From: Burkholderiales bacterium
GTDB lineage: Bacteria > Pseudomonadota > Gammaproteobacteria > Burkholderiales > Casimicrobiaceae
Assembly: GCA_017880805.1 (NCBI GenBank)
Contig: JADGRP010000182.1
Span: 1-38,483, forward strand
Length of the DNA: 38,483 nucleotides
Direction: 5' to 3'
Numbering within the stretch: the first letter of the stretch is position 1; each line of letters starts with the position of its first letter. The notes beneath the pieces are model-generated. The model worked only from the letters and a program-made list of their open reading frames with translations, was not told the origin of the DNA and did not search any database. Shown here piece after piece: positions 13,939 to 38,071 of the stretch. The translations under genes were made by a program, and so were the position numbers.

Positions 13939-14027
13939 CGTCATCCCCGCGAAAGCGGGGTTCCATTTTGGGTGCACTCAAAACCTAATGGATTCCCGCT
14001 CAGTTACCAAAATGAGCGGGAACGACG
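13939..14027. repeat. CGTCAT-ended palindromic intergenic repeat, copy A
   Basis: The element begins CGTCATCCCCGC and ends GCGGGAACGACG, so its ends are near-perfect inverted repeats. The first arm is a tight hairpin, CCCCGC-GAAA-GCGGGG. The second is a long-loop hairpin (CCCGCTC, loop, GAGCGGG) at 13994-14020. It lies between the binding-protein and first permease genes. Its second arm matches, in inverted orientation, the first arm of copy B at 18653-18740. Confidence 0.85.
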
Positions 14028-18468: not shown

Positions 18469-18841
18469 GCGCAAATGTTTCGGTAGCGAATCGGTTGCTT
18501 CAGCTCGGTGGAACGGCGTAGCCGGCGACCAACCGACGGTACGGTCTTCTGCCCACTCTCATTGCAAGTTTACCCCTGTTCACGACGCCGCCGTCGGGTG
18601 TAGGCTGTTGTCGAGCATTGCGAAAGTGCGCGACACGGGAAATTCTTTAGGTCGTCATTCCCGCTCATTTTGATGACCCAGCGGGAATCCATTGGTTGTC
18701 GACGGGCGCAAAATGGATCCCCGCTTTCGCGGGGATGACGCCATTTTTGTGGAAACTGTCGCCCATGTCAGGGACCCTCAGTAAATAATGACTGCAGCGT
18801 AGCGCGCCCATAGCCGCATCTCAACAGGACATCCACGCCCC
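18469..18841. other. gene-free stretch between divergent units
   Basis: These 373 bases separate the minus-strand dehydratase gene from the plus-strand Asp-rich gene. They hold palindromic repeat copy B (18653-18740). They should also carry the promoters of both neighbouring units, but I see no convincing -35/-10 pair on either strand. Confidence 0.7.
18653..18740. repeat. CGTCAT-ended palindromic intergenic repeat, copy B
   Basis: It runs from CGTCATTCCCGC to GCGGGGATGACG. The first arm is the long-loop variant (CCCGCTCATTTTG, loop, GCGGG); the second is the tight CCCCGC-TTTC-GCGGGG hairpin. It is therefore copy A in inverted orientation: the reverse complement of A's long-loop arm matches B's over 26 bases with four differences. 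Confidence 0.85.
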
Positions 18842-24056: not shown

Positions 24057-25004
24057 TCAAACCTGCAATCCGCCGAAGCGCCGATAGAAGTATGGCGCCG
24101 CCGATCGCAGCGCTCCGCGAGAATCTTCGAGGATCGCGGCGAGATATCGTTCGGCGCGCTCATGCGTCAGCCGATAGAGGTCGCGGCACAGCGAATACGC
24201 GGCGGCCTCGGGCCAATTCGAAGGCAGCAGCTCGGAAGGCAACTGCGGGTCGTGCAACGTGACACGTCGGAACTCGTGAATGAGCAGGGTGCGCACGACG
24301 AAGCATTGCTGAGGGGTCGGGTTGGCACCCTGGCCGAGCGCGCCGGCAATGCCCTTAAAGCGCGCGACGAAACCGCGATATGCGGCGGAAACGCTTTCCA
24401 GGTCCCAACAATCCTTCGTCAGCGAGGCGATCGACCCGGCGCCCTGCGGGATCGCGTGCGCGGTCACGATCGCGAAGCGCCCGGCTATGCCGAGCACTTG
24501 CGTCGTTTCATTGAGCGCGGCTTCATTGCCGGGACGCGCCGGCCGCGCAAACAAACCTGGCCCGAGCGCGGCAAAGCCGTCCCATTCCAGTTCCTTGCGC
24601 AATTCGCGCCGGGAGGATTTACCGATAGTCGCCGGCGGCACGATGACCAGATGCCAGCCGCCGTCCCATGGGTCCGTCGCGGGCGGCGCGTAGATGCGGC
24701 GATAGGCATGCTCGAATCGTCGCTGCCCCTGGCGCGTCAGCCGATAGAGGCTGCGTCTTCCTTCCTGCCGGGCGGCGAGCCATCCTTCCTGCGCGAGCCG
24801 GTAGACGCTGGTGCGGACCAGCCGCTCGTTGATGCCGAAAGGCTCGAGCAGCCCGATGAGGCCCGATAGCCAGACCGCACCGCCGTGCGGCGCGATGGAG
24901 TCGCCCCAGACGGTCACGACCAGCGACTTGGCTTTGGGCGGCGCTGACGCGAGCGCTCGCCGGATCCAGCGATTGGTACTTGGATCGGGCCGGTCAGCAG
25001 TCAC
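24057..25004 (-). CDS. paaX: PaaX family repressor of phenylacetate catabolism
   Basis: A 315-residue regulator divergent from paaA. The N-terminal winged helix includes [24 protein letters not shown], then [26 protein letters not shown] and RRSLYRLT. The middle and C-terminal parts ([40 protein letters not shown]) match PaaX throughout. PaaX represses paa promoters and is released by phenylacetyl-CoA. I place the start at the GTG at 25004, because the family begins just before RWIRR; a TTG at 25046 would add 14 residues and lie inside the operator-like palindrome. The gene ends 76 bases from the convergent cyclase gene with no clear terminator. Confidence 0.93.
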
Positions 25005-25019
25005 GGCTGCCGCCAATGT

Positions 25020-25056
25020 GATACAGAATTTGCCATTATCATACAAAAAGTGTATC
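25020..25056. promoter_or_regulatory. imperfect palindrome between paaX and paaA, candidate PaaX operator
   Basis: GATACAGAATTTG at 25020-25032 and CAAAAAGTGTATC at 25044-25056 are inverted repeats matching at 10 of 13 positions, with outer GATACA/TGTATC perfect. The half-sites are 24 bases apart centre to centre. The repeat covers the candidate paaA promoter and sits just upstream of the paaX start, where an autoregulating repressor would bind. Confidence 0.6.
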
Positions 25057-25058
25057 GT
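25030..25058 (+). promoter_or_regulatory. candidate sigma-70 promoter of the paaA operon
   Basis: TTGCCA at 25030-25035 and TATCGT at 25053-25058 are separated by 17 bases. Both hexamers fall within or at the edge of the palindrome at 25020-25056, so repressor binding would block polymerase. The paaA ribosome site follows about 40 bases downstream. Confidence 0.5.
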
Positions 25059-25115
25059 TTTTCGGGGGTTGCCGCCAGCCGAGCCGCCAAGCCAAGCGAC
25101 AAGGAGGAAAGCTTC

Positions 25116-26102
25116 ATGTATGCGCAGATGGTCGACACCGGAGCGACGCGCTTGCGCTCGCTGGATGAGCTATCGCCCGAGGAACGCGAATTCCAGGCGC
25201 GCATCGATGCCGACATCAAGATCGAGCCCAGGGACTGGATGCCGGAGGCCTATCGCAGGACCCTGATCCGGCAGATCTCGCAGCACGCGCACTCGGAGAT
25301 CGTCGGCATGCTGCCAGAAGGCAACTGGATCACGCGCGCGCCGAGCCTCAAGCGCAAGGCGATTCTCATGGCCAAGGTCCAGGATGAAGCGGGCCACGGC
25401 CTCTACCTTTACTGTGCCGCCGAGACGCTGGGTGTTTCGCGCGACGAGCTGGTCGCCGATCTGCATTCCGGCAAGGCCAAATACTCGAGCATCTTCAACT
25501 ATCCGACGCTGACCTGGGCCGACATCGGCGCGATCGGATGGCTGGTAGACGGCGCCGCGATCATGAACCAGATTCCCCTGTGCCGGTGCTCGTTCGGACC
25601 GTATTCGCGGGCGATGATCCGCGTCTGCAAGGAAGAAAGCTTTCACCAGCGCCAGGGTTTCGACATCATGATGACGCTGTGCAAGGGAACTCCTACGCAG
25701 AAAGCGATGGCGCAGGACGCGCTGAACCGATGGTGGTGGCCGTCGCTGATGATGTTCGGGCCGCCCGACGCGACGTCAGTGCACAGCGCGCAATCGGCGC
25801 AATGGAAGATCAAGATGTTGTCCAACGACGAGCTGCGCCAGCGCTTCGTCGATCAGACGGTGCCGCAGGCGGACTATCTCGGCATCGCCATGCCCGATCC
25901 GGAACTCAAGTGGAACGCCGAGCGCGGCCATTACGATTTCGGTCCGATCGATTGGGACGAGCTCTACGACGTCGTCAAGGGCAACGGGCCGTGCAATCGC
26001 GAGCGGCTGCGGGCGCGTGTGGACGCATGGGAAGAGGGCACGTGGGTACGCGACGCGGCAATGGCGCATGCAGAGAAACATGAAGCCAGAAAAGCGGCGT
26101 GA
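25116..26102 (+). CDS. paaA: 1,2-phenylacetyl-CoA epoxidase catalytic subunit PaaA
   Basis: A 328-residue ferritin-like di-iron oxygenase subunit. Iron ligands are visible in [13 protein letters not shown] (Glu91, His94) and [11 protein letters not shown] (Glu174, His177), with a further candidate Glu61 in HAHSEIVG. With PaaB, PaaC and PaaE it epoxidises the ring of phenylacetyl-CoA using O2 and NADPH. AAGGAGG at 25101-25107 lies 8 bases before the ATG at 25116 and settles the start; the frame is open upstream to 25050 but that part runs through the promoter. It is the first gene of the paaABCD unit. Confidence 0.96.
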
Positions 26103-26132
26103 GACGAAACTGAGCGAAAATGAGAGCACACG

Positions 26133-26417
26133 ATGAGTCATGAATGGCCGTTGTGGGAAATCTTCATCCGGTCGCAGCATGGGCTCGCGCACAGGCACGT
26201 CGGCAGCCTGCACGCGCCCGATGCGGAAATGGCGGTCAAGAACGCGCGCGACGTCTACACCCGGCGCAATGAAGGCGTCAGCATATGGGTCGTGAAGTCG
26301 GCCGACATCGTCGCCAGCTCACCAGGCAAGAAGGAGCCGATGTTCGAGCCCGCAAGCAGCAAGGTGTACCGGCATCCGACGTTTTTTCCGATGCCTGATG
26401 AAGTGAAGCACATCTGA
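26133..26417 (+). CDS. paaB: 1,2-phenylacetyl-CoA epoxidase subunit PaaB
   Basis: A 94-residue protein, the usual length for PaaB. It opens SHEWPLWEIFIRSQHGLAHRHVGSLHAPDAEMA, the diagnostic PaaB block, and ends near YRHPTFFPMPDEVKHI. PaaB is a small non-catalytic subunit needed to join the PaaA-PaaC heterodimers into the active epoxidase and to connect to the reductase. It starts 30 bases after paaA and its stop is one base before the paaC ATG, so it is firmly within the operon. Confidence 0.96.
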   Translation: MSHEWPLWEIFIRSQHGLAHRHVGSLHAPDAEMAVKNARDVYTRRNEGVSIWVVKSADIVASSPGKKEPMFEPASSKVYRHPTFFPMPDEVKHI

Positions 26418-26418
26418 C

Positions 26419-27204
26419 ATGGCGTCCGATCAGCAACTGCTCGACTACGTCCTGCGGCTTGCCGACAGCGACCTGATCCTCGCGCAGCGCCTCGGCGAAT
26501 GGGTCGGCCACGGGCCGGTGCTCGAGGAAGATATCGCGCTCACCAATGTCGGTCTCGATCTGCTCGGGCAGGCGCGGCTCTGGTTTGCATACGCGAGTGA
26601 GATCGAGGCGCGCGAGGTTCAAGCTCAATCTGGCGGCGCGGGTCGCAGCGAAGACGAATTCGCATTCATGCGCGAAGGCGGCAGCTTCCGCAATCTGCTG
26701 CTCGCCGAGCAGCCCAACGGCAATTACGCGGACACGACGGCGCGCCAATTCTACTTCGACGTCTGGCACGAGTTATTGCTGCGAAGCCTCGCGGGCTCGC
26801 GCGATAGGCGTATAGCGGAAATTGCGACGAAGGCGCTTAAGGAAGTGATGTATCACGCGGAGCGCAGCGCCGACTGGGTGATCCGGCTCGGCGACGGCAC
26901 CGACTTGAGCCACGCCAGGATGCAGTCGGCAATCGACGATCTGTGGATGTATACCGGGGAGATGTTCGCTGCCGACGACACAGAAATTGCGCTTGCCGCG
27001 GAGGGCGTCGCCGCTGACGTTGGCGCACTGTTGCCTGTCTGGCGCGATCGCGTCGCCTCGGTCCTTGACGAGGCGACCCTGACCATGCCGTCGGCAGCGT
27101 GGATGCAGCGTGGCGGCAAGCAGGGCGTGCACACCGAACACCTCGGCCGCCTGCTCGCTGAAATGCAGTCACTTCACCGCGCTCATCCAGGTGCACAGTG
27201 GTGA
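26419..27204 (+). CDS. paaC: 1,2-phenylacetyl-CoA epoxidase structural subunit PaaC
   Basis: A 261-residue ferritin-like protein paralogous to PaaA. Typical PaaC blocks are LADSDLILAQRLGEWVGHGPVLEEDIALTNVGLDLLGQ, REGGSFRNLLLAEQPNGNYADT and EVMYHAERSADWVIRLGDGT. It forms the structural partner of PaaA and helps bind CoA; it is not expected to hold the catalytic iron pair. A 22-residue region near 68-90 (VQAQSGGAGRSEDEF) looks slightly variable, as in other members. It starts one base after paaB ends, and its TGA overlaps the GTG start of paaD. Confidence 0.96.
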   Translation: MASDQQLLDYVLRLADSDLILAQRLGEWVGHGPVLEEDIALTNVGLDLLGQARLWFAYASEIEAREVQAQSGGAGRSEDEFAFMREGGSFRNLLLAEQPNGNYADTTARQFYFDVWHELLLRSLAGSRDRRIAEIATKALKEVMYHAERSADWVIRLGDGTDLSHARMQSAIDDLWMYTGEMFAADDTEIALAAEGVAADVGALLPVWRDRVASVLDEATLTMPSAAWMQRGGKQGVHTEHLGRLLAEMQSLHRAHPGAQW

Positions 27205-27746
27205 CGACAAGGTCTGCGGTTGTGGATCGTCCCGGCATCGACGCCATATGGCGCGCGCTGGCGGCGGTTCCGGATCCGGAGATTCCGGTGATATCGGTGG
27301 TCGATCTGGGCATCATCCGCGGCGTCGAGTGGCGTGACAATGAACTAGTGGTCTCGGTCACCCCGACCTATTCCGGGTGCCCCGCCACCGAGGTTATTGC
27401 CAGCGACATCGGGCGCGCGCTGGTCGCCGCCGGTGTTGTGCGCTTTCGCATCGAGACCAGGCTCGCGCCGGCTTGGACGACGGACTGGATCGTGCCGGAG
27501 GCCCGGCAGCGGCTTGCAGACTACGGTATCGCGCCGCCAGGAGCGCGCGCGTCCGCATCAAGTCAAATCAACCGCATCGACATCAGCGCATTGCGCCGAC
27601 ATCGCACCGAGGCGGCAAGCGTTCCCTGTCCGCGCTGCCATTCGACGCGCACGCACGAGCAATCGCGCTACGGTTCGACACCCTGCAAGGCGCAGTACCG
27701 CTGCGACGATTGCCTCGAGCCATTCGACTATTTCAAGCCGCATTGA
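27201..27746 (+). CDS. paaD: phenylacetate degradation protein PaaD (Fe-S assembly type)
   Basis: A 181-residue protein. The first part is a MIP18/DUF59 domain (WRALAAVPDPEIPVISVVDLGIIRGVEW, TPTYSGCPATEVIASDIG). The C-terminal 45 residues carry a zinc-ribbon-like set of Cys pairs, VPCPRCHS and YRCDDCLEPFDYF, with a further Cys between. PaaD is required for an active epoxidase in vivo, probably through assembly of its iron or Fe-S centres. The start is the GTG at 27201, overlapping the paaC stop (GTGA); the adjacent GTG at 27198 is equally readable. It is followed by a 198-base gap with repeat copy C before paaE. Confidence 0.94.
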   Translation: MTTRSAVVDRPGIDAIWRALAAVPDPEIPVISVVDLGIIRGVEWRDNELVVSVTPTYSGCPATEVIASDIGRALVAAGVVRFRIETRLAPAWTTDWIVPEARQRLADYGIAPPGARASASSQINRIDISALRRHRTEAASVPCPRCHSTRTHEQSRYGSTPCKAQYRCDDCLEPFDYFKPH

Positions 27747-27808
27747 TTGTTCGCAGGGATCGCTATGTTGAGGACTGCCAATATCGGCAACAGCTTCAAC
27801 AATACTGG

Positions 27809-27880
27809 CGTCATCCCCGCGGAAGCGGGGATCCATGTTTCTTAAAATGCCAATGGATTCCCGCTTTCGCGGGAATGACG
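27809..27880. repeat. CGTCAT-ended palindromic intergenic repeat, copy C
   Basis: It lies between paaD and paaE. The ends CGTCATCCCCGC and GCGGGAATGACG are inverted repeats; the two arms are CCCCGC-GGAA-GCGGGG (27815-27830) and CCCGC-TTTC-GCGGG (27860-27873). The last arm, read on the minus strand, is identical to the first arm of copy D over about 31 bases. Confidence 0.88.
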
Positions 27881-27944
27881 ATATTGGGTACGCGATTATC
27901 GTTAGGACTCCAGGTGGCACGCACTTTCTCAATGCTCGATATCG

Positions 27945-29021
27945 ATGAGTAAGTTTCACGCGCTCACCATCGCTTCGGTCGCCCGGGAAACCCGCGACGT
28001 GGTCACGCTGACTTTCGACGTGCCGTCCACGTTGGGAGACGCGTTTCGTTATGTGCAGGGCCAGCACCTGACGCTGCGCGCGGACATCGGCGGCGAACAC
28101 GTGCGCCGCTCTTACTCGATCTGTTCGGCGGTGCAGGACGACAAACTGCGCATCGCGGTCAAGAAGACCCCGGGAGGCGTGTTCTCAACGTGGGCCAACG
28201 AGCACCTCAGGCAAGGCGCGACCATCGACGTGATGCCGCCGATGGGCCACTTCAACGTCGCGCTCGAGCCGGCGAATCGCAAGCACTACCTTGGTTTCGC
28301 GGCTGGCAGCGGCATCACTCCGCTGTTGTCGATCGTCAAGACGACGCTGCTCACGGAAGCCGACAGCCGGTTCACGCTTTTCTACGGCAACCGCTCGTCG
28401 AGCGCGGTGATCTTTCGCGAAGAGCTCGCCGACCTGAAGGACTGCTTCCTGAGCCGCCTGAACCTGGTATACGTCATGAGCCGCGAGCCGCAGGACATCG
28501 ACATCCTGAACGGGCGCATCGACCGCAAGAAGGCCGACGCACTGCTGGAACATTGGGTCGACATGAGCGAGGTCGATGCCGCCTTCGTCTGCGGGCCCGA
28601 CGGCATGATGCAGGCGGTCGCGGAGTCGCTGCAGGCGCACGGATTGGCGAAGTCGCAGATCAAGATTGAGCTATTCGCGGCGAGCATCCCGAAGCACGAG
28701 CACAAGGTCCCGGAGTCGCTTCCGCCCGGTCAATCCGAATGCGCGGTGACGGTGATCATCGACGGCGCCCGCCGCGAATACACGCTGGAAAAGTCCCACG
28801 AAAACATTCTCGACGCGGCGCTGAGGCAGGGCATCGAGCTGCCCTATTCGTGCAAGGGCGGAGTGTGCTCGACCTGCCGCGCCAAGCTGATCGAGGGTGA
28901 GGTCGACATGGACGTCAATTTTGCGCTCGAGGACTACGAAGTGGCGCGCGGGTTCGTGCTCTGCTGTCAGAGCTACCCGGTGACCGACAAGGTCGTGGTC
29001 GATTTCGATCAGGGTGCATAG
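27945..29021 (+). CDS. paaE: 1,2-phenylacetyl-CoA epoxidase reductase subunit PaaE
   Basis: A 358-residue reductase. An FAD domain with RRSYSICSAV (about 45-55) and an NAD(P) domain (FAAGSGITPLLSI) are followed by a C-terminal plant-type [2Fe-2S] ferredoxin domain with Cys303, Cys308, Cys311 and Cys341 (SCKGGVCSTC, then LCCQSYP). It passes electrons from NADPH to the PaaA di-iron site. It follows paaD after a 198-base gap holding repeat copy C; the ribosome site before the ATG at 27945 is poor. It may therefore be made at a different level from paaA-D, or from its own promoter. Confidence 0.95.
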   Translation: MSKFHALTIASVARETRDVVTLTFDVPSTLGDAFRYVQGQHLTLRADIGGEHVRRSYSICSAVQDDKLRIAVKKTPGGVFSTWANEHLRQGATIDVMPPMGHFNVALEPANRKHYLGFAAGSGITPLLSIVKTTLLTEADSRFTLFYGNRSSSAVIFREELADLKDCFLSRLNLVYVMSREPQDIDILNGRIDRKKADALLEHWVDMSEVDAAFVCGPDGMMQAVAESLQAHGLAKSQIKIELFAASIPKHEHKVPESLPPGQSECAVTVIIDGARREYTLEKSHENILDAALRQGIELPYSCKGGVCSTCRAKLIEGEVDMDVNFALEDYEVARGFVLCCQSYPVTDKVVVDFDQGA

Positions 29022-29136: not shown

Positions 29137-30807
29137 TTGTCTCATCCTTTGTTCGAACGTCACAAGCCGCTGCTCGATCAGGCGCTCGCAGCGATTGCCG
29201 CCCGCGGTTACTGGAGTGCATTCCCGGAGTCGCCGAGCCCCAAGGTTTACGGCGAAGGTGCGGCGGAAGCCGGTAAGGCGGCGTTCGACGCGCTGCTGAA
29301 CAAGCCGTTCCCAATGCAACTCCCGGGAAGTCAGGGCACGGTCGGTGCGGAGATGTCACCTTACGGCATCCCGCTCGGCATCAGCTATCCGAAAGTCGAC
29401 CTCGATCAACTTTTCGCGGCCATCGCCAGGGCCGAGCCCGCGTGGCGCAAGGCGGGTCCCGAAGCGTGGGTGGGGGTAGCGCTGGAAATCCTGACCCGAA
29501 TCAACAAGCGGAGCTTCGAGCTTGCGCATGCGGTCATGCATACGACCGGCCAGGCATTCGTGATGTCGTTCCAGGCCGGGTGTCCGCACGCGCAGGATCG
29601 CGGACTCGAGGCGATCGCGTACGCATGGGACGAGCTGCGACGCATTCCGGCAAAAGCGTATTGGGAAAAGCCGCAAGGCAAGAACGAGCCGTTGAAGATG
29701 GAGAAGCACTACCGCATCGTGCCGCGGGGCATAGCGCTGGTAATCGGCTGCAACACCTTTCCGACCTGGAACGGCTATCCCGGGATGTTCGCGAGCCTTG
29801 CCACCGGCAATGCGGTTATCGTCAAGCCGCATCCCAACGCGATCCTGCCGCTGGCGATCACTGTCCAGGTTGCGCGCGAGGTGCTGGCCGAAGCCGGGTT
29901 CGATCCGAATATCGTGACGCTGGTCGCGCACGCGGCCGGCGACGACACCGCGCAGAAGCTTTCGCTTCGGCCGGAGGTGAAGCTTATCGACTTCACCGGC
30001 AGCACCGCCAATGGCGAATGGCTGGAGAAGAACGCGCGCCAGGCGCAGGTCTACACCGAAAAAGCCGGCGTGAACCAGATCGTCGTTGACTCCGCGGCCG
30101 ATCTCAAAGGCGTCGCGCGCAACGTCGCGTTTTCGCTTGCGCTGTACACCGGGCAGATGTGCACCGCGCCGCAGAACATCTACGTCCCGCGGGACGGCAT
30201 CGCTACGGCTGAGGGTCATCTGTCGTTCGATCAGGTCGCGCAGGCATTGGCCGAGGGCGTGCAAAAGCTGCTCGGCGATCCGGCTCGCGCGGTGGAGATT
30301 CTGGGCGCGGTCGTCAATGACGGCGTCGCGCGGCGCATCGACGCGGCGCGCGCACTTGGGCCCGTGGTCCTCGACAGCCAGACGCTCGCTCATCCGCAGT
30401 TTCCGCAGGCAACGATCCGCACGCCGCTCTTGGTGAAGCTGGAAGCGAAGGACGACGCAAAATATCTCAAGGAATGGTTTGGACCCATCGGCTTTGTCAT
30501 CGCTACCGACGGCACAGCGCAGAGCCTGGACATCGCGCGGCGAGCGGCAAAGGAACACGGTGCGTTGACGCTCGCGGTGTACTCGACCGATCCGAAGGTG
30601 ATAGCCGATGCGATCGCGGTGGCCGAGGATGCCGGGGTTGCGCTGTCGATCAACCTGACCGGCGCCGTATTCGTCAATCAGTCGGCGGCGTTTTCCGACT
30701 TTCACGGTACTGGCGCCAACCCGGCGGCGAACGCGTCGTTGACCGACGCAGCATTTGTCGCCAACCGTTTTCGCGTGGTGCAGCACCGCATGCATGTGAG
30801 CGCATGA
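29137..30807 (+). CDS. paaN: phenylacetate degradation protein PaaN (aldehyde dehydrogenase family, no hydratase domain)
   Basis: A 556-residue aldehyde-dehydrogenase-fold protein of the PaaN group. Marks include RGYWSAFPESPSPKVYGEGA near the start, VIGCNTFPTWNGYPGMFASLATGNAVI in the cofactor region and the catalytic Cys342 in YTGQMCTAPQN. It probably oxidises the ring-opened semialdehyde of the phenylacetyl-CoA pathway. E. coli PaaZ also has a MaoC-type oxepin-CoA hydrolase domain, which is absent here, so that activity must come from elsewhere. The start codon is TTG at 29137: GGAG at 29125-29128 lies 8 bases upstream, and the family begins SHPLFERH exactly there. The stop overlaps the paaG start (ATGA). 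Confidence 0.93.
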   Translation: MSHPLFERHKPLLDQALAAIAARGYWSAFPESPSPKVYGEGAAEAGKAAFDALLNKPFPMQLPGSQGTVGAEMSPYGIPLGISYPKVDLDQLFAAIARAEPAWRKAGPEAWVGVALEILTRINKRSFELAHAVMHTTGQAFVMSFQAGCPHAQDRGLEAIAYAWDELRRIPAKAYWEKPQGKNEPLKMEKHYRIVPRGIALVIGCNTFPTWNGYPGMFASLATGNAVIVKPHPNAILPLAITVQVAREVLAEAGFDPNIVTLVAHAAGDDTAQKLSLRPEVKLIDFTGSTANGEWLEKNARQAQVYTEKAGVNQIVVDSAADLKGVARNVAFSLALYTGQMCTAPQNIYVPRDGIATAEGHLSFDQVAQALAEGVQKLLGDPARAVEILGAVVNDGVARRIDAARALGPVVLDSQTLAHPQFPQATIRTPLLVKLEAKDDAKYLKEWFGPIGFVIATDGTAQSLDIARRAAKEHGALTLAVYSTDPKVIADAIAVAEDAGVALSINLTGAVFVNQSAAFSDFHGTGANPAANASLTDAAFVANRFRVVQHRMHVSA

Positions 30808-31598
30808 CTTATCAGCACATCCTGTACGCCACCGATGGCGGCGTCGCGCGACTGACCCTCAATCGGCCGGATCGATTGAACAGTTTCAACGACGCCATGC
30901 ATGCCGAGGTCCGGGATGCCTTGTCGCGCGCCAAGGCGAGCGCCGATATTCGCGTGCTCTTGTTGACTGGGGCGGGACGCGGCTTTTGCGCCGGGCAGGA
31001 TCTGGGCGACCGCGCAGTCGCGCCCGGCTCGGAGCCGGTCGATCTGGGCGCGTCAATCGAGCGCAACTACAAACCGCTGGTGTTGAGCCTGCGGGCGCTC
31101 CCGCTGCCGGTCGTGTGCGCGGTCAATGGCGTCGCCGCCGGTGCCGGCGCGAACATCGCCTTGGCCTGCGACATCGTGATTGCAGCGAAGTCGGCGAGCT
31201 TTATCCAGGCATTTTCGAGAATAGGACTGATCCCCGATTCCGGCGGCACGTATTTCCTCCCGCGCCTGGTCGGCTCTGCTCGGGCAATGGGAATGGCCAT
31301 GCTTGGCGACAAGCTCTCCGCCGAGCAGGCCGCGGCGTGGGGGCTGATCTGGAAATGTGTCGACGATGCCGAATTTCCTGCCACCGTCGACGCGCTCGTG
31401 CAACACCTGTCCACGGCCGCGACGCGCGGGCTCGCGGCGACCAAGCAGGCGATTTATGCCGCCGGCGACAATACGCTCGAGGCGCAGCTCGATCTGGAAC
31501 GCGACGTGCAGCGCGTGCTTGGCAAAAGCCTGGATTATCGTGAGGGTGTAAGTGCGTTCGCAGCCAAACGGCAACCTCGCTTCACGGGCACTCAATGA
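30804..31598 (+). CDS. paaG: 1,2-epoxyphenylacetyl-CoA isomerase PaaG (enoyl-CoA hydratase family)
   Basis: A 264-residue crotonase-fold protein. RLTLNRPDRLNSFNDAMH opens the family core; GAGRGFCAGQDLGDR forms the oxyanion-hole loop with the PaaG-typical GQDL; and FSRIGLIPDSGGTYFLPRLVG holds the catalytic-loop Asp. PaaG isomerises the ring epoxide of phenylacetyl-CoA to oxepin-CoA. The ATG at 30804 overlaps the paaN stop, indicating coupled translation. No paaF, paaH or paaJ follows. The gene is followed by repeat copy D. Confidence 0.93.
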   Translation: MTYQHILYATDGGVARLTLNRPDRLNSFNDAMHAEVRDALSRAKASADIRVLLLTGAGRGFCAGQDLGDRAVAPGSEPVDLGASIERNYKPLVLSLRALPLPVVCAVNGVAAGAGANIALACDIVIAAKSASFIQAFSRIGLIPDSGGTYFLPRLVGSARAMGMAMLGDKLSAEQAAAWGLIWKCVDDAEFPATVDALVQHLSTAATRGLAATKQAIYAAGDNTLEAQLDLERDVQRVLGKSLDYREGVSAFAAKRQPRFTGTQ

Positions 31599-31635
31599 CC
31601 ATTACAAGTGTGGTTGACACCTGGATCCCTGGAAT

Positions 31636-31708
31636 CGTCATTCCCGCGAAAGCGGGAATCCATTGCTTTTGAAGTTCAAGATGGGTCCCCGCCTTCGCGG
31701 GCACGACG
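31636..31708. repeat. CGTCAT-ended palindromic intergenic repeat, copy D
   Basis: It lies between paaG and paaI. Ends are CGTCATTCCCGC and GCGGGCACGACG, with arms CCCGC-GAAA-GCGGG and CCCCGC-CTTC-GCGGG. It is copy C inverted: about 31 bases of its left end match the reverse complement of C's right end exactly. Confidence 0.85.
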
Positions 31709-31750
31709 CAACTTGTGGAAGCTGGAGCTCATTTCGCTAGTCCTCATTAG

Positions 31751-32233
31751 ATGACCAAACCTGACATTTCACACGCGTCCGCCGCGCCTCTCACGTCCGC
31801 CGAAGCGCAGTCGCTCGCCGAACGTGTCGCCGCGGAAATGTTCGCTCGCGATCGGGCGTCGCAGGCGATGGGCGTGCACATCGCCAAGGTTGGACCGGGA
31901 CGGGCCGAATTGACGATGAAGGTTCGTGCCGACATGCTCAACGGTCACGCCACATGCCACGGCGGATTCATCTTCACGCTGGCCGACAGCGCATTCGCGT
32001 TCGCCTGTAACAGCGCCAACATGACCACGGTGGCTTCCGGCTGCAGCATCGACTTTATTGCGCCGGCACGTGAGGACGACGTGCTGACGGCGATCGGCGA
32101 GGAACGATCCTTAAGCGGCCGCACCGGCATCTACGATATCGAGGTCAGGAATCAGCGTGGCGAGACGGTTGCGCTTTTTCGCGGCAAGTCGCACCGAATC
32201 AAGGGTCATGTCATTGCCGAGGCTGCACCGTAG
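31751..32233 (+). CDS. paaI: phenylacetyl-CoA-pathway thioesterase PaaI (hotdog fold)
   Basis: A 160-residue hotdog-fold acyl-CoA thioesterase. NGHATCHGGFIFTLADSAFAFACNS holds the HGG loop and the catalytic Asp (LADSAFA); ASGCSIDFIAPAREDD forms the CoA-contact strand. PaaI hydrolyses hydroxylated or stalled phenylacetyl-CoA derivatives to free CoA, acting as a rescue enzyme of the pathway. The ribosome site before the ATG at 31751 is weak. It follows repeat copy D and is 9 bases upstream of the truncated paaK. Confidence 0.93.
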   Translation: MTKPDISHASAAPLTSAEAQSLAERVAAEMFARDRASQAMGVHIAKVGPGRAELTMKVRADMLNGHATCHGGFIFTLADSAFAFACNSANMTTVASGCSIDFIAPAREDDVLTAIGEERSLSGRTGIYDIEVRNQRGETVALFRGKSHRIKGHVIAEAAP

Positions 32234-32242
32234 AGGGCCGGT

Positions 32243-32617
32243 ATGCCAGTCAAGAAACCAGCGCCTGGCGAACTCGAGGCCATCGAGACCGCAAGCCGCG
32301 ACGAGGTGGAGGCGTTGCAGTTGCAGCGTTTGAAGTGGACGCTGCGGCACGCCTACGACAACGTCGCGCATTGCCGCGCCGGCTTCGACGCCGCGGGCGT
32401 TCGACCGGACGATCTTCGAACGCTCGGCGATCTGGCCAGGTTTCCGTTCACGATCAAGACCGATCTTCGTGATCACTATCCGTTTGGCATGTTCGCCGTG
32501 CCGCGCGAGCAGGTGGTGCGCATCCATGCGTCGAACAGGCCACTCTGCGTGGTTCAGATGCGCACTCGCACCGTTACAACATATAAACTAACCGCCGAGC
32601 GATTCACCGGGCAATAG
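32243..32617 (+). pseudogene. paaK: truncated phenylacetate-CoA ligase PaaK (N-terminal fragment)
   Basis: A 124-residue frame. Residues 1-97 match the PaaK N-terminus (LQLQRLKWTLRHAYDNVAH, FPFTIKTDLRDHYPFGMFAVPRE, VVRIHAS). A normal PaaK then continues with the SSGTTGKPT ATP-binding loop and about 310-340 more residues. Here the sequence changes after Ser97 (codon ending at 32533) to 27 unrelated residues and stops. The other two forward frames beyond this point do not resume PaaK, so this is a deletion or rearrangement, not a frameshift. With no AMP-binding domain the fragment cannot activate phenylacetate. The break point adjoins the hpaG genes, 62 bases from the stop. A ligase encoded elsewhere would be needed for the pathway. 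Confidence 0.88.
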
Positions 32618-32679
32618 ACCGTGACCTGTCCGCTGGCGCGTGTGTCGGCACGGCAGTTGAAAAACCTTAGGAGCCTCTG

Positions 32680-33465
32680 GTGCCGGTAGTGATGGCAAGA
32701 ACTCGGTTCATGGCGCAGCCAGAACGCTTCGAGGTCGATCCGCTTTCCGGCTCGATACGCAGCGGTGGAAAGACGCTCGGCATGAATGAACTTCAGTGGG
32801 ACATGCCGACACGCGGCGCCGTTTATGGCGTGCTGATGAATTATCGCGGCGTTCTCGACGCCCTTGACGCCGCCGGTGGAGAGTCATCTGCCCCGCCTCG
32901 GGCGCCTGTCCTTTTCGTGAAGCCGGCCAATACATGGATTGCCTACGGCGACGCGATACCGGTTCCGGAGGACGTGGAATGCATCGAAGCAGGCGCGGCG
33001 CTTGGCATTGTGATGGGCAAGACCGCGTGCCGCGTGGCTGCCGTCGATGCGCTCAACTTTGTCGCCGGCTATACCATCGTCAACGATGTATGCGAGCCGC
33101 ACCAGAGTTATGACCGTCCGGCGACGCGCCAGCGCTGTCGCGACGGCTTTTGCGCCATCGGCCCCTGGGTCATGCCGAAGCAATCGGTACCGTCGCCGGA
33201 CAGGCTGACGCTACGCGTGCTGGTCAACGGCGTGCTCCGGACGGAGAACACCACCGCGAACATGATCCGTTCGGTGGCGACGCTGATCGCCGACGTGACC
33301 GAATTCGTCACCCTGTCGGCGGGCGACATTCTGCATACGGGCGTGCCCGAGAACGCTCCGAGAATCGCCGCCGGCGATCGAGTGCGCATCGAGTTCGACC
33401 GCATTGGAGCGCTCGAGAATCGCGTCGTCGCCGAACGTGAGCTCATGACGGGCGGGTCGCGGTGA
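32680..33465 (+). CDS. hpaG1: HpaG1-type FAH-family isomerase/decarboxylase subunit
   Basis: A 261-residue FAH-fold protein resembling the N-terminal half of HpaG/HpcE: GVLMNYRGVLDALD, LFVKPANTWIAYGDAIPVP, GYTIVNDVCEPHQSYDRPATRQRCRDGFCAIGPW. In the homoprotocatechuate pathway HpaG decarboxylates and isomerises the ring-cleavage product. The Glu-x-Glu metal pair is replaced (AGAALGIVMG), as I recall is usual for this half of the fused enzyme. The start is the GTG at 32680, with AGGAG at 32669-32673 six bases upstream; an ATG at 32692 is an alternative. The stop overlaps the start of hpaG2. Whether the true substrate is a homoprotocatechuate product is unproven, since other hpa genes are absent. 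Confidence 0.82.
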   Translation: MPVVMARTRFMAQPERFEVDPLSGSIRSGGKTLGMNELQWDMPTRGAVYGVLMNYRGVLDALDAAGGESSAPPRAPVLFVKPANTWIAYGDAIPVPEDVECIEAGAALGIVMGKTACRVAAVDALNFVAGYTIVNDVCEPHQSYDRPATRQRCRDGFCAIGPWVMPKQSVPSPDRLTLRVLVNGVLRTENTTANMIRSVATLIADVTEFVTLSAGDILHTGVPENAPRIAAGDRVRIEFDRIGALENRVVAERELMTGGSR

Positions 33466-34250
33466 AGCGCGCCCGCGTCGCGTATCTCGGGGCAGTGCAC
33501 GATGCGGTTGAAGAGGAGGGCCGGCTAAGGCTCGCAGACGGACGCCTGATTGACGAATCCGCAGTGGTATGGCTGCCGCCGCTGCCGACGACCACGCGGC
33601 CACGTACGATTTTTGCCGTGGAGATGAACTACACCGACTATTCCAAGGAGCTCGCGTTCAAGGCGCCGGATGAGCCGCTGGTTTTTGTCAAAGGACCCGG
33701 CACTCTGGTCGGACATCGCGGCGAGACGCGCCGCCCTGCGGACGCCACCTACATGCACTACGCATGTGAGCTCGCGGTGGTCATCGGCAAGACCGCGCGG
33801 CGGGTCACTCGAACCGACGCTTACGAGTACGTGCAGGGATATACGGTGGCCAACGATTACTTGGTTCGCGACTATCTCGAAAACAACTATCCGCCCAATC
33901 TCCGCGCTGCCGGCCGAGACGCCTGCACGCCGCTGGGGCCCTGGCTGGTCGACGCGGCTGATGTCCGCGACCCGATGAATCTGCGCCTGCGAACGCTGAT
34001 CAACGGCGGGATCACGCAGCAGGGCAGCACCCGGGACATGGTCTTCGACATCCGCTTTCTGATCGCCTATCTCAGCGCGTTCATGACGCTCTTTGCCGGC
34101 GACGTGATCCTTACCGGAACCCCCGATGGCCTGGTCGGCGTTCAGGATGGCGACGAGGTGGTGACCGAAATCGATGGCATCGGGCGTTTGAGCAACACGA
34201 TCGTCGGCGCCTCGTCGGTTCCCTATGCGCCCGGGTCGCGTCACGGCTAA
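33462..34250 (+). CDS. hpaG2: HpaG2-type FAH-family isomerase/decarboxylase subunit, altered metal site
   Basis: A 262-residue FAH-fold protein like the C-terminal half of HpaG/HpcE: TIFAVEMNYTDYSKEL, FVKGPGTLVGHRG, GYTVANDYLVRDYLENNYPPNLR, LTGTPDGLVG. In the family the Mg site is Glu-x-Glu plus Asp. Here the segment reads HYACELAVVIGK, so the first Glu is Ala101 (codon GCA at 33762-33764), while Glu103 and Asp132 remain with the normal 29-residue spacing. This may lower or change activity. GTG start at 33462 overlaps the hpaG1 stop (GTGA), so the pair is coupled and probably forms a hetero-oligomer. Confidence 0.83.
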   Translation: MKRARVAYLGAVHDAVEEEGRLRLADGRLIDESAVVWLPPLPTTTRPRTIFAVEMNYTDYSKELAFKAPDEPLVFVKGPGTLVGHRGETRRPADATYMHYACELAVVIGKTARRVTRTDAYEYVQGYTVANDYLVRDYLENNYPPNLRAAGRDACTPLGPWLVDAADVRDPMNLRLRTLINGGITQQGSTRDMVFDIRFLIAYLSAFMTLFAGDVILTGTPDGLVGVQDGDEVVTEIDGIGRLSNTIVGASSVPYAPGSRHG

Positions 34251-34253
34251 TTC

Positions 34254-35234
34254 ATGAAGGTCACGATTTTCGGCGCCGGCGCCATCGGCGGTTTTCTCGG
34301 CACGCGACTGGCGCAAAGCGGCTGTGAGGTCGCGGCCATCGCCCGCGGCGCGACCGCCGCAGCGCTGCGCGCACACGGCTGGCGCTTGCAGACGGGCGGC
34401 ACCTTGGTCGCCGTGCCGGCACGCGTCGCCGAACAGCCGAGCGAGCTCGGGCCGCAGGATCTGGTCGTGGTCGCCGTGAAGGGGCCGGCGCTCGCCAGCA
34501 TCGCGGCGGCGATTTCGCCTTTGCTCGATCGCGATACGGTGGTGATGAGCGCGATGAACGGCGTCCCGTGGTGGTTCTTTCACGAGTTTGGCGGCGAGTA
34601 CGCAGGCACGCAGATCGCGTCGATCGATCCCGATGGATCGATTGCCGCGGGCATTCCCGCTCGCCACGTCGTCGGCTGCGTCGTTCATGCGGCGTGTGCG
34701 AGCCTGGAACCCGGGCTCACGCGGCACAACGTCGGCAATCGCCTGATCATCGGCGAGCCGCGCGGTGGCGACTCGCCGCGGGTGCGTGCGGTGGCGCAGA
34801 CGCTCTCCCACGCTGGCTTCGACGTGGAGGTCTCCGCCTGCATCCAACGCGACGTCTGGTACAAATTGTGGGGCAACATGACCATGAATCCGGTCTCGGC
34901 GCTCACCGGCGCAACGGTCGACCGGGTACTCGACGATCCCCTCGTCAATGGTTTTTGTCTCGAGGTGATGCGAGAGGCGGCGGCAATCGGCGCGAGAATC
35001 GGCTGTCCAATCGAGCAAAGCGGGCAGGATCGCAACGCCATCACGCGAAAACTGGGAGCATTCAAGACCTCGATGCTGCAGGACGTCGAAGCCGGCAAGC
35101 CGGTCGAGATCGACGTGCTGCTGTCCGCGGTGCGCGAAATCGGGCAGAAGGTCGGCGAGCGAACGCCGCAGCTGGATGCGTTGCTTGGCCTTTCGCGCCT
35201 GCAGGCCAGAATGCGGGGCCTCTATCCCGGCTGA
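34254..35234 (+). CDS. ketopantoate reductase (ApbA/PanE) family oxidoreductase
   Basis: A 326-residue NADP-dependent oxidoreductase. The dinucleotide fold opens FGAGAIGGFLGTRLA (about 5-19). The C-terminal domain holds the catalytic Lys in WYKLWGNMTMNPVSALTGAT and the substrate-binding block MLQDVEAGKPVEIDVLLSA. True PanE reduces 2-dehydropantoate for coenzyme A synthesis. This copy starts 3 bases after hpaG2 within a catabolic unit, so a role in reducing another 2-oxo acid from aromatic breakdown is more likely. I therefore leave the gene symbol blank. Confidence 0.87.
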   Translation: MKVTIFGAGAIGGFLGTRLAQSGCEVAAIARGATAAALRAHGWRLQTGGTLVAVPARVAEQPSELGPQDLVVVAVKGPALASIAAAISPLLDRDTVVMSAMNGVPWWFFHEFGGEYAGTQIASIDPDGSIAAGIPARHVVGCVVHAACASLEPGLTRHNVGNRLIIGEPRGGDSPRVRAVAQTLSHAGFDVEVSACIQRDVWYKLWGNMTMNPVSALTGATVDRVLDDPLVNGFCLEVMREAAAIGARIGCPIEQSGQDRNAITRKLGAFKTSMLQDVEAGKPVEIDVLLSAVREIGQKVGERTPQLDALLGLSRLQARMRGLYPG

Positions 35235-35297: not shown

Positions 35298-35408
35298 GCA
35301 AGCGGCCTATCAGCGCACATGGCGCCAAGCCATGCGCGCCGTACAGTACGAAATCGGCCGCGCCTGCACGACGATCGGCACACGCCAGCCCAACACCGGA
35401 GCGCATCG

Positions 35409-36362
35409 ATGAGTGACAAGAAATTCGCTTCGCAAGCCGACCTCGAGGAAAAGACGATCAGCTTCGACAAGCTGTCCGATCATGCGTATGCGTACACCGC
35501 AGAGGGCGACCCGAACACCGGCATTATCGTCGGCGATGACGCGGTGATGGTGATCGACACGCAGGCGACGCCGGTCATGGCGCAGGACGTCGTCCGCCGC
35601 ATCCGCGAGGTGACGAGCAAGCCGATCAAGTACGTCGTGCTCTCGCACTACCACGCGGTGCGCGTTCTCGGCGCATCCGGGTACAAACCCGAGCACATCA
35701 TCGCCAGCCGCGACACCTACGACCTGATCGTCGAGCGCGGCGAGGCCGACATGAAAAGCGAGATCGAGCGCTTTCCACGGCTCTTTCGCGCGGTCGAGTC
35801 GGTTCCCGGGCTGACCTGGCCGACGCTGATATTCGAGCAGCACATGACGCTCTGGCTCGGCAAGCTTCGGGTCGAGATCATGCAGCTCGGCCGCGGCCAC
35901 ACCAAGGGCGACACCGTCGTCTGGCTGCCGCAGGAAAGGATCCTGTTCTCCGGCGATCTTGTGGAATACGGCGCGACGCCCTACACCGGCGACGCGTATC
36001 TGACCGATTGGCCCGCGACGCTGGACGCAATCGCGGATCTCGAGCCTTTGAAGCTCGTGCCCGGGCGAGGCTCCTCGTTGATGAATCCCGTCCAGGTCAA
36101 GGCGGGTCTCGAGGGCACACGCTCATTCGTCAGTGAAATGTTCAGCGCCGTGAAGCGTAGCGCTGCCGCCGGAAACGATCTGCGCACCGTCTACAAGGAA
36201 ACGTATGCGATGCTCAAGCCGAAGTTCGGAAATTGGGTCATTTTCGACCACTGCCTTCCGTTCGACGTGACGCGGGCGTACGACGAAGCGACACAATATC
36301 GCGATCCGCGCATCTGGACCGCGGAGCGCGACAAGGCGATGTGGGAGTCCCTGGAAGGCTAG
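35409..36362 (+). CDS. MBL-fold protein lacking the second zinc site
   Basis: A 317-residue metallo-beta-lactamase-fold protein. In hydrolytic members the motif HxHxDH is followed by later His, Asp and His ligands. Here the motif reads H80-Y-H82-A-V84-R85, with His164 (GRGHTKGD) and Asp183 (FSGDLVE) present, but the final PGHG is PGR220G. The Zn1 ligands (His80, His82, His164) are therefore intact, while three ligands of the Zn2 site are Val, Arg and Arg. One-metal or altered chemistry is expected. GGAG at 35398-35401 supports the ATG at 35409. The gene lies in the homogentisate-type cluster next to a flavin monooxygenase, so it may act on a lactone or thioester of that route; the substrate is unknown. 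Confidence 0.88.
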   Translation: MSDKKFASQADLEEKTISFDKLSDHAYAYTAEGDPNTGIIVGDDAVMVIDTQATPVMAQDVVRRIREVTSKPIKYVVLSHYHAVRVLGASGYKPEHIIASRDTYDLIVERGEADMKSEIERFPRLFRAVESVPGLTWPTLIFEQHMTLWLGKLRVEIMQLGRGHTKGDTVVWLPQERILFSGDLVEYGATPYTGDAYLTDWPATLDAIADLEPLKLVPGRGSSLMNPVQVKAGLEGTRSFVSEMFSAVKRSAAAGNDLRTVYKETYAMLKPKFGNWVIFDHCLPFDVTRAYDEATQYRDPRIWTAERDKAMWESLEG

Positions 36363-36412
36363 TGGGGCGGTGGAGGTATGGACTCGCTTCCACGAATTAG
36401 CGCGCATTCCAA

Positions 36413-38071
36413 GTGAAGACCTACGCCAATCCGATCTATTCCTGTGCCGTGCCGGCCGAGTTGAGCGGCACGCCGCATCACTGGCCCGTGGTCGTCGTCG
36501 GCGCCGGTCCGGTCGGTCTTTGCGCCGCAATCGATCTCGCGCAGCGCGGAATCGATGTGCTGGTGCTCGATGAAGACAATACCGTCAGCATCGGTTCGCG
36601 CGCCATCTGCTGGGCCAAGCGGACGCTGGAAATTCTCGACCGCCTTGGATGCGGGGATCGCATCGTCGACAAGGGCGTCGAATGGAACGTGGGCAGGGTC
36701 TTTTTCAGGGACGAGCAGATCTACCAATTCGACCTGCTGCCGGAAGCCGGCCACCGTCGCCCGGCGTTCATCAATCTCCAACAGTACTGGGTGGAGCAAT
36801 TTCTGGTCGAGCAATGTGCCTCGCTGCCCCAGGCCGAGGTGCGCTGGCAAAACAAGGTCGTCGGAGTGACGCCTGAGCGCGATCGTGTCGCCATCCGCGT
36901 CGCTGCGCCCGAGGGGGAATATACCGTCCACACCGATTGGCTGATCGTCGCCGACGGCGCGCGAAGCCCGGTCCGGGGCATGCTCGGCCTCGAATGCGAG
37001 GGGCTGGCATTCCGTGATCGCTTTCTGATTGCTGACGTGCTCATGCACTCGGATTTTCCGAGTGAACGGTGGTTCTGGTTCGATCCTCCTTTTCACCGCA
37101 ACCAATCGGCGCTGCTGCACCGGCAGGCGGACAATGTCTGGCGCATCGATTTTCAACTCGGCCCCGATGCGGATCCCGACGAGGAAAAGAAGCCCGAGAA
37201 GATCATGCCGCGCCTGCGCGCGATGCTCGGAGAGAAGGCAGAATTCGAAATCGAATGGGCGAGCGTTTACACCTTCCAGTGCCGGCGCATGCGCTCGTTT
37301 CGCCATGGTCGCGCGTTGTTCGTGGGCGACGCCGCGCACCTGGTGTCTCCGTTCGGCGCGCGGGGCGCGAACAGCGGCATTCAGGATGTCGACAATCTGA
37401 TCTGGAAGCTGGAGCTGGTGATGGCAGGACTCGCGCCGGAATCGCTTCTGGACAGTTACGACACCGAGCGCGCGTTCGCGGCCGACGAGAACATCCGGCA
37501 CTCGACGCGAAGCACCGACTTCATAACGCCCAAGAGCGAGGCGAGCAGGGCGTTCCGCGACGCGGCGCTGCTGCTCGCCAAGCATTACGCGTTCGCACGT
37601 CGCCTCGTCAATAGCGGCCGCTTGTCGCTGCCGACCACCTTTGACGCCTCCCCACTCAACACCCGAGACGCAGAACCGTTTGCGGGCGCCGTAGCGCTAG
37701 GCGGACCGGCGGTCGACGCTCCCGTCGAAGGGCCGCGTGGCGTTTGGCTGCTGTCGTATCTGGAGGGAGGGTTTACGCTAATGGTGTTCGGCGCTTCACC
37801 GCCGGCGGCCGCGACCGAGGCGTTGGCCAACGATGCCATTCCGTGCAATGTGGTGCGGGTCGGCGGCAGACCCGAGGCCGGGGGATCCTGGATCGAAGAC
37901 AGGGAGCGCCTGGTCGCAGCGCGTTATGATGGCCAACCGGGAACGTGCTATCTGTTCCGGCCGGACCAGCACCTGTGCGCCCGCTGGCGCAGCTTCGATT
38001 TGCAATCGGTGCGCAAGGCGATCGCGTGCGCGACGGGCTTGGGCTATGTCGCGGCGAGGGAGGCAGCGTGA
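36413..38071 (+). CDS. FAD-dependent aromatic hydroxylase (MhpA/PHBH family)
   Basis: A 552-residue class A flavoprotein monooxygenase. The FAD site is VVVVGAGPVGLCAAIDLAQRG (about 26-46), the second FAD motif is IVADGARSPVRG and the third is LFVGDAAHLVSPFGARGANSGIQD. The C-terminal 150 residues form a thioredoxin-like extension typical of MhpA relatives. These enzymes hydroxylate a phenol ring using NAD(P)H and O2. Placement just before hmgA suggests that the product may be homogentisate, for example from 3-hydroxyphenylacetate; this is an inference. GTG start at 36413; the upstream gene ends 50 bases before. Its stop overlaps the start of the DUF2783 gene. Confidence 0.88.
   Translation: MKTYANPIYSCAVPAELSGTPHHWPVVVVGAGPVGLCAAIDLAQRGIDVLVLDEDNTVSIGSRAICWAKRTLEILDRLGCGDRIVDKGVEWNVGRVFFRDEQIYQFDLLPEAGHRRPAFINLQQYWVEQFLVEQCASLPQAEVRWQNKVVGVTPERDRVAIRVAAPEGEYTVHTDWLIVADGARSPVRGMLGLECEGLAFRDRFLIADVLMHSDFPSERWFWFDPPFHRNQSALLHRQADNVWRIDFQLGPDADPDEEKKPEKIMPRLRAMLGEKAEFEIEWASVYTFQCRRMRSFRHGRALFVGDAAHLVSPFGARGANSGIQDVDNLIWKLELVMAGLAPESLLDSYDTERAFAADENIRHSTRSTDFITPKSEASRAFRDAALLLAKHYAFARRLVNSGRLSLPTTFDASPLNTRDAEPFAGAVALGGPAVDAPVEGPRGVWLLSYLEGGFTLMVFGASPPAAATEALANDAIPCNVVRVGGRPEAGGSWIEDRERLVAARYDGQPGTCYLFRPDQHLCARWRSFDLQSVRKAIACATGLGYVAAREAA

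Follow-up and report, generated by a model that had tools for sequence, protein, structure and literature searches.

The question raised by this locus is how a paaK reading frame in a phenylacetate (paa) gene cluster came to break off directly in front of an hpaG gene pair, and whether the break leaves the organism without the ligase that opens the pathway. The stretch analysed here, which we call the window, is a whole contig (C293; 38,483 bases) of a 3.91-Mb draft genome that comprises 353 contigs, with estimates of 93.8% completeness and 6.0% contamination. The features that matter for the argument are the following, with profile scores given against the curated cut-offs.

24057..25046, minus strand: paaX, repressor of the paa genes (TIGR02277, 292.8 bits, cut-off 264.55).
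25050..29021, plus strand: paaA, paaB, paaC, paaD and paaE, the phenylacetyl-CoA epoxidase genes (TIGR02156, 02157, 02158, 02159 and 02160, each above its cut-off).
29137..30807, plus strand: paaN (PaaN_2, aldehyde dehydrogenase type; TIGR02288, 927.1 bits, cut-off 578.75).
30804..31598, plus strand: paaG isomerase (TIGR02280, 411.3 bits, cut-off 345.15), its start picked by homology inside a longer ORF (30474-31598).
31751..32233, plus strand: paaI thioesterase (TIGR02286, 168.6 bits, cut-off 118.9).
32243..32617, plus strand: truncated paaK, 124 codons (TIGR02155, positions 1-84 of 422 only).
32243..32533, plus strand: the 97 PaaK-homologous codons, from the N-terminus to IHAS, before the ATP-binding loop (comparison with eight relatives; DNA matches stop here).
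32534..32679, plus strand: the 27-codon tail, stop codon and hpaG1 leader, of no recognised origin (GC 0.568).
32680..33465, plus strand: hpaG1, FAH-family subunit and first gene of the insert (TIGR02305, 234.4 bits, cut-off 228.65).
33462..34250, plus strand: hpaG2, FAH-family subunit (TIGR02303, 342.6 bits, cut-off 276.4).
34254..35234, plus strand: panE-like reductase, an ancestral paaK neighbour (69.5% and 73.6% identical genes follow paaK in G002 and G005).
35319..36362, plus strand: metallo-beta-lactamase-fold hydrolase, an ancestral neighbour (81-84% identical after paaK in G002, G005 and G010; PF00753).
36359..37585, minus strand: rev408, an ancestral neighbour (48-54% identical, after the hydrolase in G002, G005 and G010).

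The window also carries palindromic TTCCCGCGAAAGCGGGAATCC-type repeats, which presumably are of the kind known as REP elements: five matches with up to three mismatches were found (31641-31661, 27855-27875, 27814-27834, 13944-13964 and 18715-18735) against 0.01 expected from shuffles. Three of them fall between genes of the paa cluster (in the paaD-paaE and paaG-paaI gaps), two of these being exact, and a further exact copy is on another contig of the same genome, C124.

The paaK ORF begins with an ATG at 32243, and the TAG that ends it at 32617 leaves a product of 124 residues. Residues 15-98 align to the beginning of the TIGR02155 profile with 126.7 bits, far below the curated cut-off of 646.3, and residues 9-100 match the solved PaaK2 structure 2y4o (E 9.8e-43 by phmmer), so that the N-terminal PaaK segment is present; the fragment contains no Pfam domain at E≤0.001. 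Alignment with eight relatives places the end of PaaK homology at about 32533, where the window reads HASNRP and the relatives HASSGT. The ATP-binding loop SSGTTGKP is absent from the ORF, SNRPLCVV standing at that place, and after the last PaaK-like residue there are 27 unrelated residues and then the stop codon. The initial annotation had recognised 97 N-terminal residues of PaaK, an abrupt switch before the ATP-binding loop and 27 further residues, and the profile, 2y4o and the eight relatives all agree with it; the GTG of hpaG1 at 32680 likewise lies 62 bases past the paaK stop, as it had stated. The likeness of the fragment to PaaK is not due to chance, because it is 60-79% identical at the amino acid level over the aligned stretch to paaK in all 14 of the relatives' loci that we fetched, and in every one of them paaK adjoins paaI. 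In B. cenocepacia PaaK, according to the relevant text of PMC8388817, Ser94, Thr96 and Thr97 hydrogen-bond the ATP phosphates. The window's ORF lacks the ATP-binding loop, the adenylation core and the C-terminal domain, and it therefore follows from the known mechanism of the family that the remnant cannot act as a ligase.

A frameshift that lets PaaK resume in another frame was considered and ruled out. With residues 98-432 of the intact PaaK of G005 as the query, the missing part could not be found anywhere on the window's contig, even at E≤10, which bears out the earlier statement that no other frame resumes PaaK. The same query found nine matches at E≤10 in the genome as a whole, of which only a gene on contig C44 was strong (420.3 bits, 59% identity); the next was a different ligase on C25 (92.7 bits), and the other seven scored 20 bits or less. 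The search for a second copy that the initial annotation had proposed thus returned distinct ligases only (C44, C25 and remoter ones). When a DNA query running from paaI to hpaG2 was compared with 41 genomes, 25 genomes besides the window's own were matched, all 25 of them in the paaK part, and the match ended at window position 32532-32534 in 19, earlier in six and later within paaK in none.

We fetched 17 stretches from related genomes, 14 with a relative's paaI-paaK (from 14 of the 25 genomes in which paaK was matched) and three with hpaG loci. Eleven of the 14 paaK loci could be aligned with the C44 ligase as far as its C-terminal residue; the others were L087, where the alignment reached residue 403 of 420 with the frame open, L091 (G016), where paaK is cut by the contig end, and L083 (G001), where the paaK frame shifts near codon 330, possibly through an error in the sequence. 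In the latter genome, which belongs to the same genus as ours, there was no other match at E≤1e-60 besides this frameshifted paaK (L083 4150-5484). The 124-residue form seen in the window occurred in none of the 14 loci, including the five same-genus paaK loci; G003, the sixth same-genus genome, had no paaK match.

What follows paaK in the relatives proved informative. In G002, of the same genus, paaK is followed directly by the panE-like gene (69.5% identical), the metallo-hydrolase (83.9%) and rev408 (49.7%), and in G005, also of the same genus, by an extra gene that from its translation appears by eye to be aldolase-like, and then by the panE-like gene (73.6%), the hydrolase (82.4%) and rev408 (53.8%). 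In G010, which is of another genus, the order is paaK, hydrolase (81.5%) and rev408 (48.4%), with no panE between. Genes of this set stand behind paaK in only three of the 14 loci; different genes occupy the position in G001 and G006, and some of the contigs break off shortly after paaK. The slot behind paaK (L082 4001-4917, L083 below 4190, window 32534-34253) is filled differently between species: it holds an aldolase-like gene in G005, an aldolase-like and a receptor-like gene (by eye) in G001, and hpaG1-hpaG2 in the window. This slot is variable in the genus. As to rev408 itself (window 36359-37585), it encodes a 408-residue protein of no recognised family, with no Pfam or NCBIfam match, that is kept behind paaK in three relatives.

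This synteny bears directly on the initial reading of the locus as a deletion or recombination junction at which a paa operon had been joined to an hpaG/hmgA operon. A truncation of deletion or recombination type is upheld. The operon junction is not: although the paa genes do stop and the hpaG genes start at 32533-32680, as a recombination joining two separate operons would predict, what follows hpaG2 is part of the paa locus in G002, G005 and G010, and we regard such a fusion as having next to no likelihood. No hmgA was found among the window genes scanned, which were a subset of its ORFs. Because the genes after hpaG2 are the paaK neighbours of these three relatives, the insert is bounded on both sides and nothing but hpaG1-hpaG2 is new; the foreign part amounts to about 1.7 kb (32534-34253), standing in place of the last ~340 codons of paaK. 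What looked like a fusion of two operons is thereby recast as a single insertion. One ancestral locus with one or two changes is the simplest history, and we think it probable from the comparison of sequences that paaK lost its ~340 3' codons and gained the ~1.7-kb insert by a deletion-insertion in the window's lineage, after which another ligase would have been needed. The left edge of the insert would lie at 32533 and the right edge near the hpaG2 stop (34250) or the start of the panE-like gene (34254).

The deletion-insertion, being read from a comparison with relatives, presupposes a correct assembly, and it is there that the main doubt lies. The true chromosome might instead carry an intact paaK whose 3' part was lost in assembly, or two strain variants might have been merged. 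Such an artefact would suit a fragmented draft bin of 353 contigs with a 6.0% contamination estimate, as well as the result of a repeat search at the insert edges, in which no mobile-element edge was recognisable. It is harder to reconcile with the rest of the evidence: the lost part of paaK is on no other contig except in the distinct C44 gene (59% identical to the query) and in remoter ligases; since the blocks flanking the foreign stretch adjoin each other in relatives, a chimera could arise only from two correctly placed joins; and the hpaG genes are like their surroundings in GC and GC3. We therefore consider an assembly artefact or strain mixture unlikely and retain the deletion-insertion. 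Because the composition of the insert matches that of its neighbours, nothing points to its recent acquisition from a differently composed genome. A comparison of 32534-32679 with 59 other genomes gave only four matches, 18-33 bases long (E 0.04-0.08).

The 97 retained codons had pN/pS of 0.19-0.30 between the window and five same-genus genes, compared with 0.13-0.32 among those five and 0.21-0.29 for the window's paaG and paaI, although this test is weak, with synonymous sites near saturation (dS about 1). The lack of relaxed constraint fits either a recent event or a fragment that is still used, because pN/pS shows no decay. Continued use could mean that the 124-residue product is a retained small protein, a PaaK N-terminal helical microdomain that binds something (for example the C44 ligase) without catalysing. 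The retained part should cover the ~70-residue N-terminal microdomain described for PaaK1 and PaaK2 in the pertinent text of PMC8388817, and its codons are constrained as in the intact relatives; yet the form is confined to the window among the loci compared, 27 unrelated residues stand at its end, and it has two changes, Leu22Val and Tyr44Cys, at columns invariant in nine relatives, a weak point as the other genes have 0-3 such changes each. Such a function seems very improbable to us. The locus looks like ordinary gene decay or disruption at a variable slot and not like a new system, the likely case being that a catabolic entry gene disappeared at a variable insertion slot and a paralogue was kept.

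The insert itself consists of two adjacent genes whose products both exceed their NCBIfam cut-offs (TIGR02305 and TIGR02303) and share 34% identity over 205 positions. Close relatives of HpaG1 are rare, with matches at E≤1e-46 in 16 of 399 genomes of the order, our own included. In a search of 60 genomes G007 (E 3.0e-56), G050 and G033 stood out, and the six same-genus genomes had only remote FAH-family proteins (best E 7.3e-29). An aldehyde dehydrogenase gene follows hpaG2 in all five relatives' loci (G007, G050, G033, G150 and G173); that of G150, the one scanned, is HpaE above the cut-off, and in G007 HpaD_Fe, HpaH and HpaI above cut-off are close to the hpaG pair. In our genome, at an estimated 93.8% completeness, searches for HpaD, HpaE and HpaH did not bring up such homoprotocatechuate partners: HpaD_Fe had no match, and none of HpaD, HpaE and HpaH exceeded its cut-off, the best scores being 149.2 bits for HpaD (a gene cut by a contig end), 61.5 for HpaH and 427.5 for HpaE. 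The hpaG pair may serve another meta-cleavage route. On contig C86 (L155 1372-4193) an MhpA-type hydroxylase and a GntR-like regulator (by eye) accompany the HpaD-like dioxygenase that is cut by the contig end, and this dioxygenase is a possible partner for the orphan pair. As for expression, an AGGAG-like ribosome site precedes hpaG1 (by eye), and a scan of 31580-32760 found no promoter and two terminator-like matches (shuffle mean 1.2); hpaG1 would probably be transcribed either by read-through of the paa operon or from a promoter that escaped recognition.

The initial annotation had also concluded that the paa cluster was left without its entry enzyme. This holds in cis, but the ligase appears to be missing from the paa cluster and not from the genome, because C44 encodes a full-length PaaK-family ligase (456 residues, 596.6 bits, no stops). 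That enzyme is 53% identical to the window's fragment over 86 residues, and by eye it has both the ATP-loop motif and the C-terminal GKA motif. Its score is below the PaaK cut-off of 646.3, which is not decisive, as the family was matched in 10 of 14 control genomes and exceeded the cut-off in one. The absence of paaK from a cluster should accordingly not be equated with the absence of a phenylacetate-CoA ligase from a genome.

The C44 ligase adjoins the subunits of a 4-hydroxybenzoyl-CoA reductase (hcr alpha 1216.4, beta 427.2 and gamma 278.8 bits, all above cut-off). Also beside it are genes encoding a molybdenum and an iron-sulphur subunit together with a membrane anchor, which match general families only and which we take to be a PadBCD-like phenylacetyl-CoA oxidoreductase. 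From this gene context the C44 enzyme is probably an anaerobic phenylacetate-CoA ligase in an anaerobic phenylacetate module. Phenylacetyl-CoA for the epoxidase would then come from another ligase than PaaK, most likely the C44 enzyme. More tentatively, and with less than even confidence, we suggest that loss of the aerobic ligase was tolerated because the C44 enzyme supplies the anaerobic route and the oxygen-dependent paa route alike; if true, a single entry enzyme would serve two pathways that use separate ligases in Azoarcus evansii.

Orthologues of the C44 ligase (75-85% identity) were found in seven of 60 genomes, belonging to genera g3, g4, g5 and g7, and in none of the six same-genus genomes, where the matches were to the paa-cluster paaK and where G003 had none. 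The C44 cluster may have been gained laterally, because orthologues occur in other genera and none in the same genus. The contig could also be a contaminant, its nearest DNA relative being G019 of genus g3 (80%), but this is unlikely as its composition matches the window: the tetranucleotide distance between C44 and the window was 0.141, against 0.149-0.516 for 15 other readable contigs of the genome, in a test that favours long contigs (C44 being the longest piece) and is blind to a same-genus contaminant. C44 was far (0.50-0.68) from single loci of three g3 genomes and of one g5 genome.

Compared with known systems, the window's ORF is like PaaK1 and PaaK2 of Burkholderia cenocepacia (2y27 and 2y4o) over about its first 97 residues, including the N-terminal microdomain as outlined in PMC8388817, and differs from both in being without the ATP-binding loop, the adenylation core and the C-terminal domain. 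The hpaG pair resembles HpaG1/HpaG2 of homoprotocatechuate meta-cleavage clusters in having both subunits adjacent and above cut-off, but it is without the adjoining aldehyde dehydrogenase gene of the five relatives' loci. Among the papers listed by a literature search of open-licence work there was no report of this paaK/hpaG arrangement; it is not among the remodelled paa clusters described in the pertinent portion of PMC13186573, which likewise reports pseudogenes and redundant ligases along with loss and rearrangement of genes. Of the two PaaK enzymes of B. cenocepacia, PaaK1 can be lost by itself with growth unimpaired, according to the relevant part of PMC4498308, so there is a precedent for compensation by a paralogue. 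Azoarcus evansii is described in PMC8388817, as far as its text on ligases goes, as having two phenylacetate-CoA ligases, one near aerobic and one near anaerobic pathway genes. Our genome similarly has one paaK in the paa cluster and another ligase within a cluster of anaerobic type, roles that we read from gene context only, but unlike in A. evansii the aerobic ligase is broken. For a ligase shared between conditions, the same text offers the precedent, with another substrate, of Thauera aromatica, in which one benzoate-CoA ligase is expressed in both conditions (PMC8388817).
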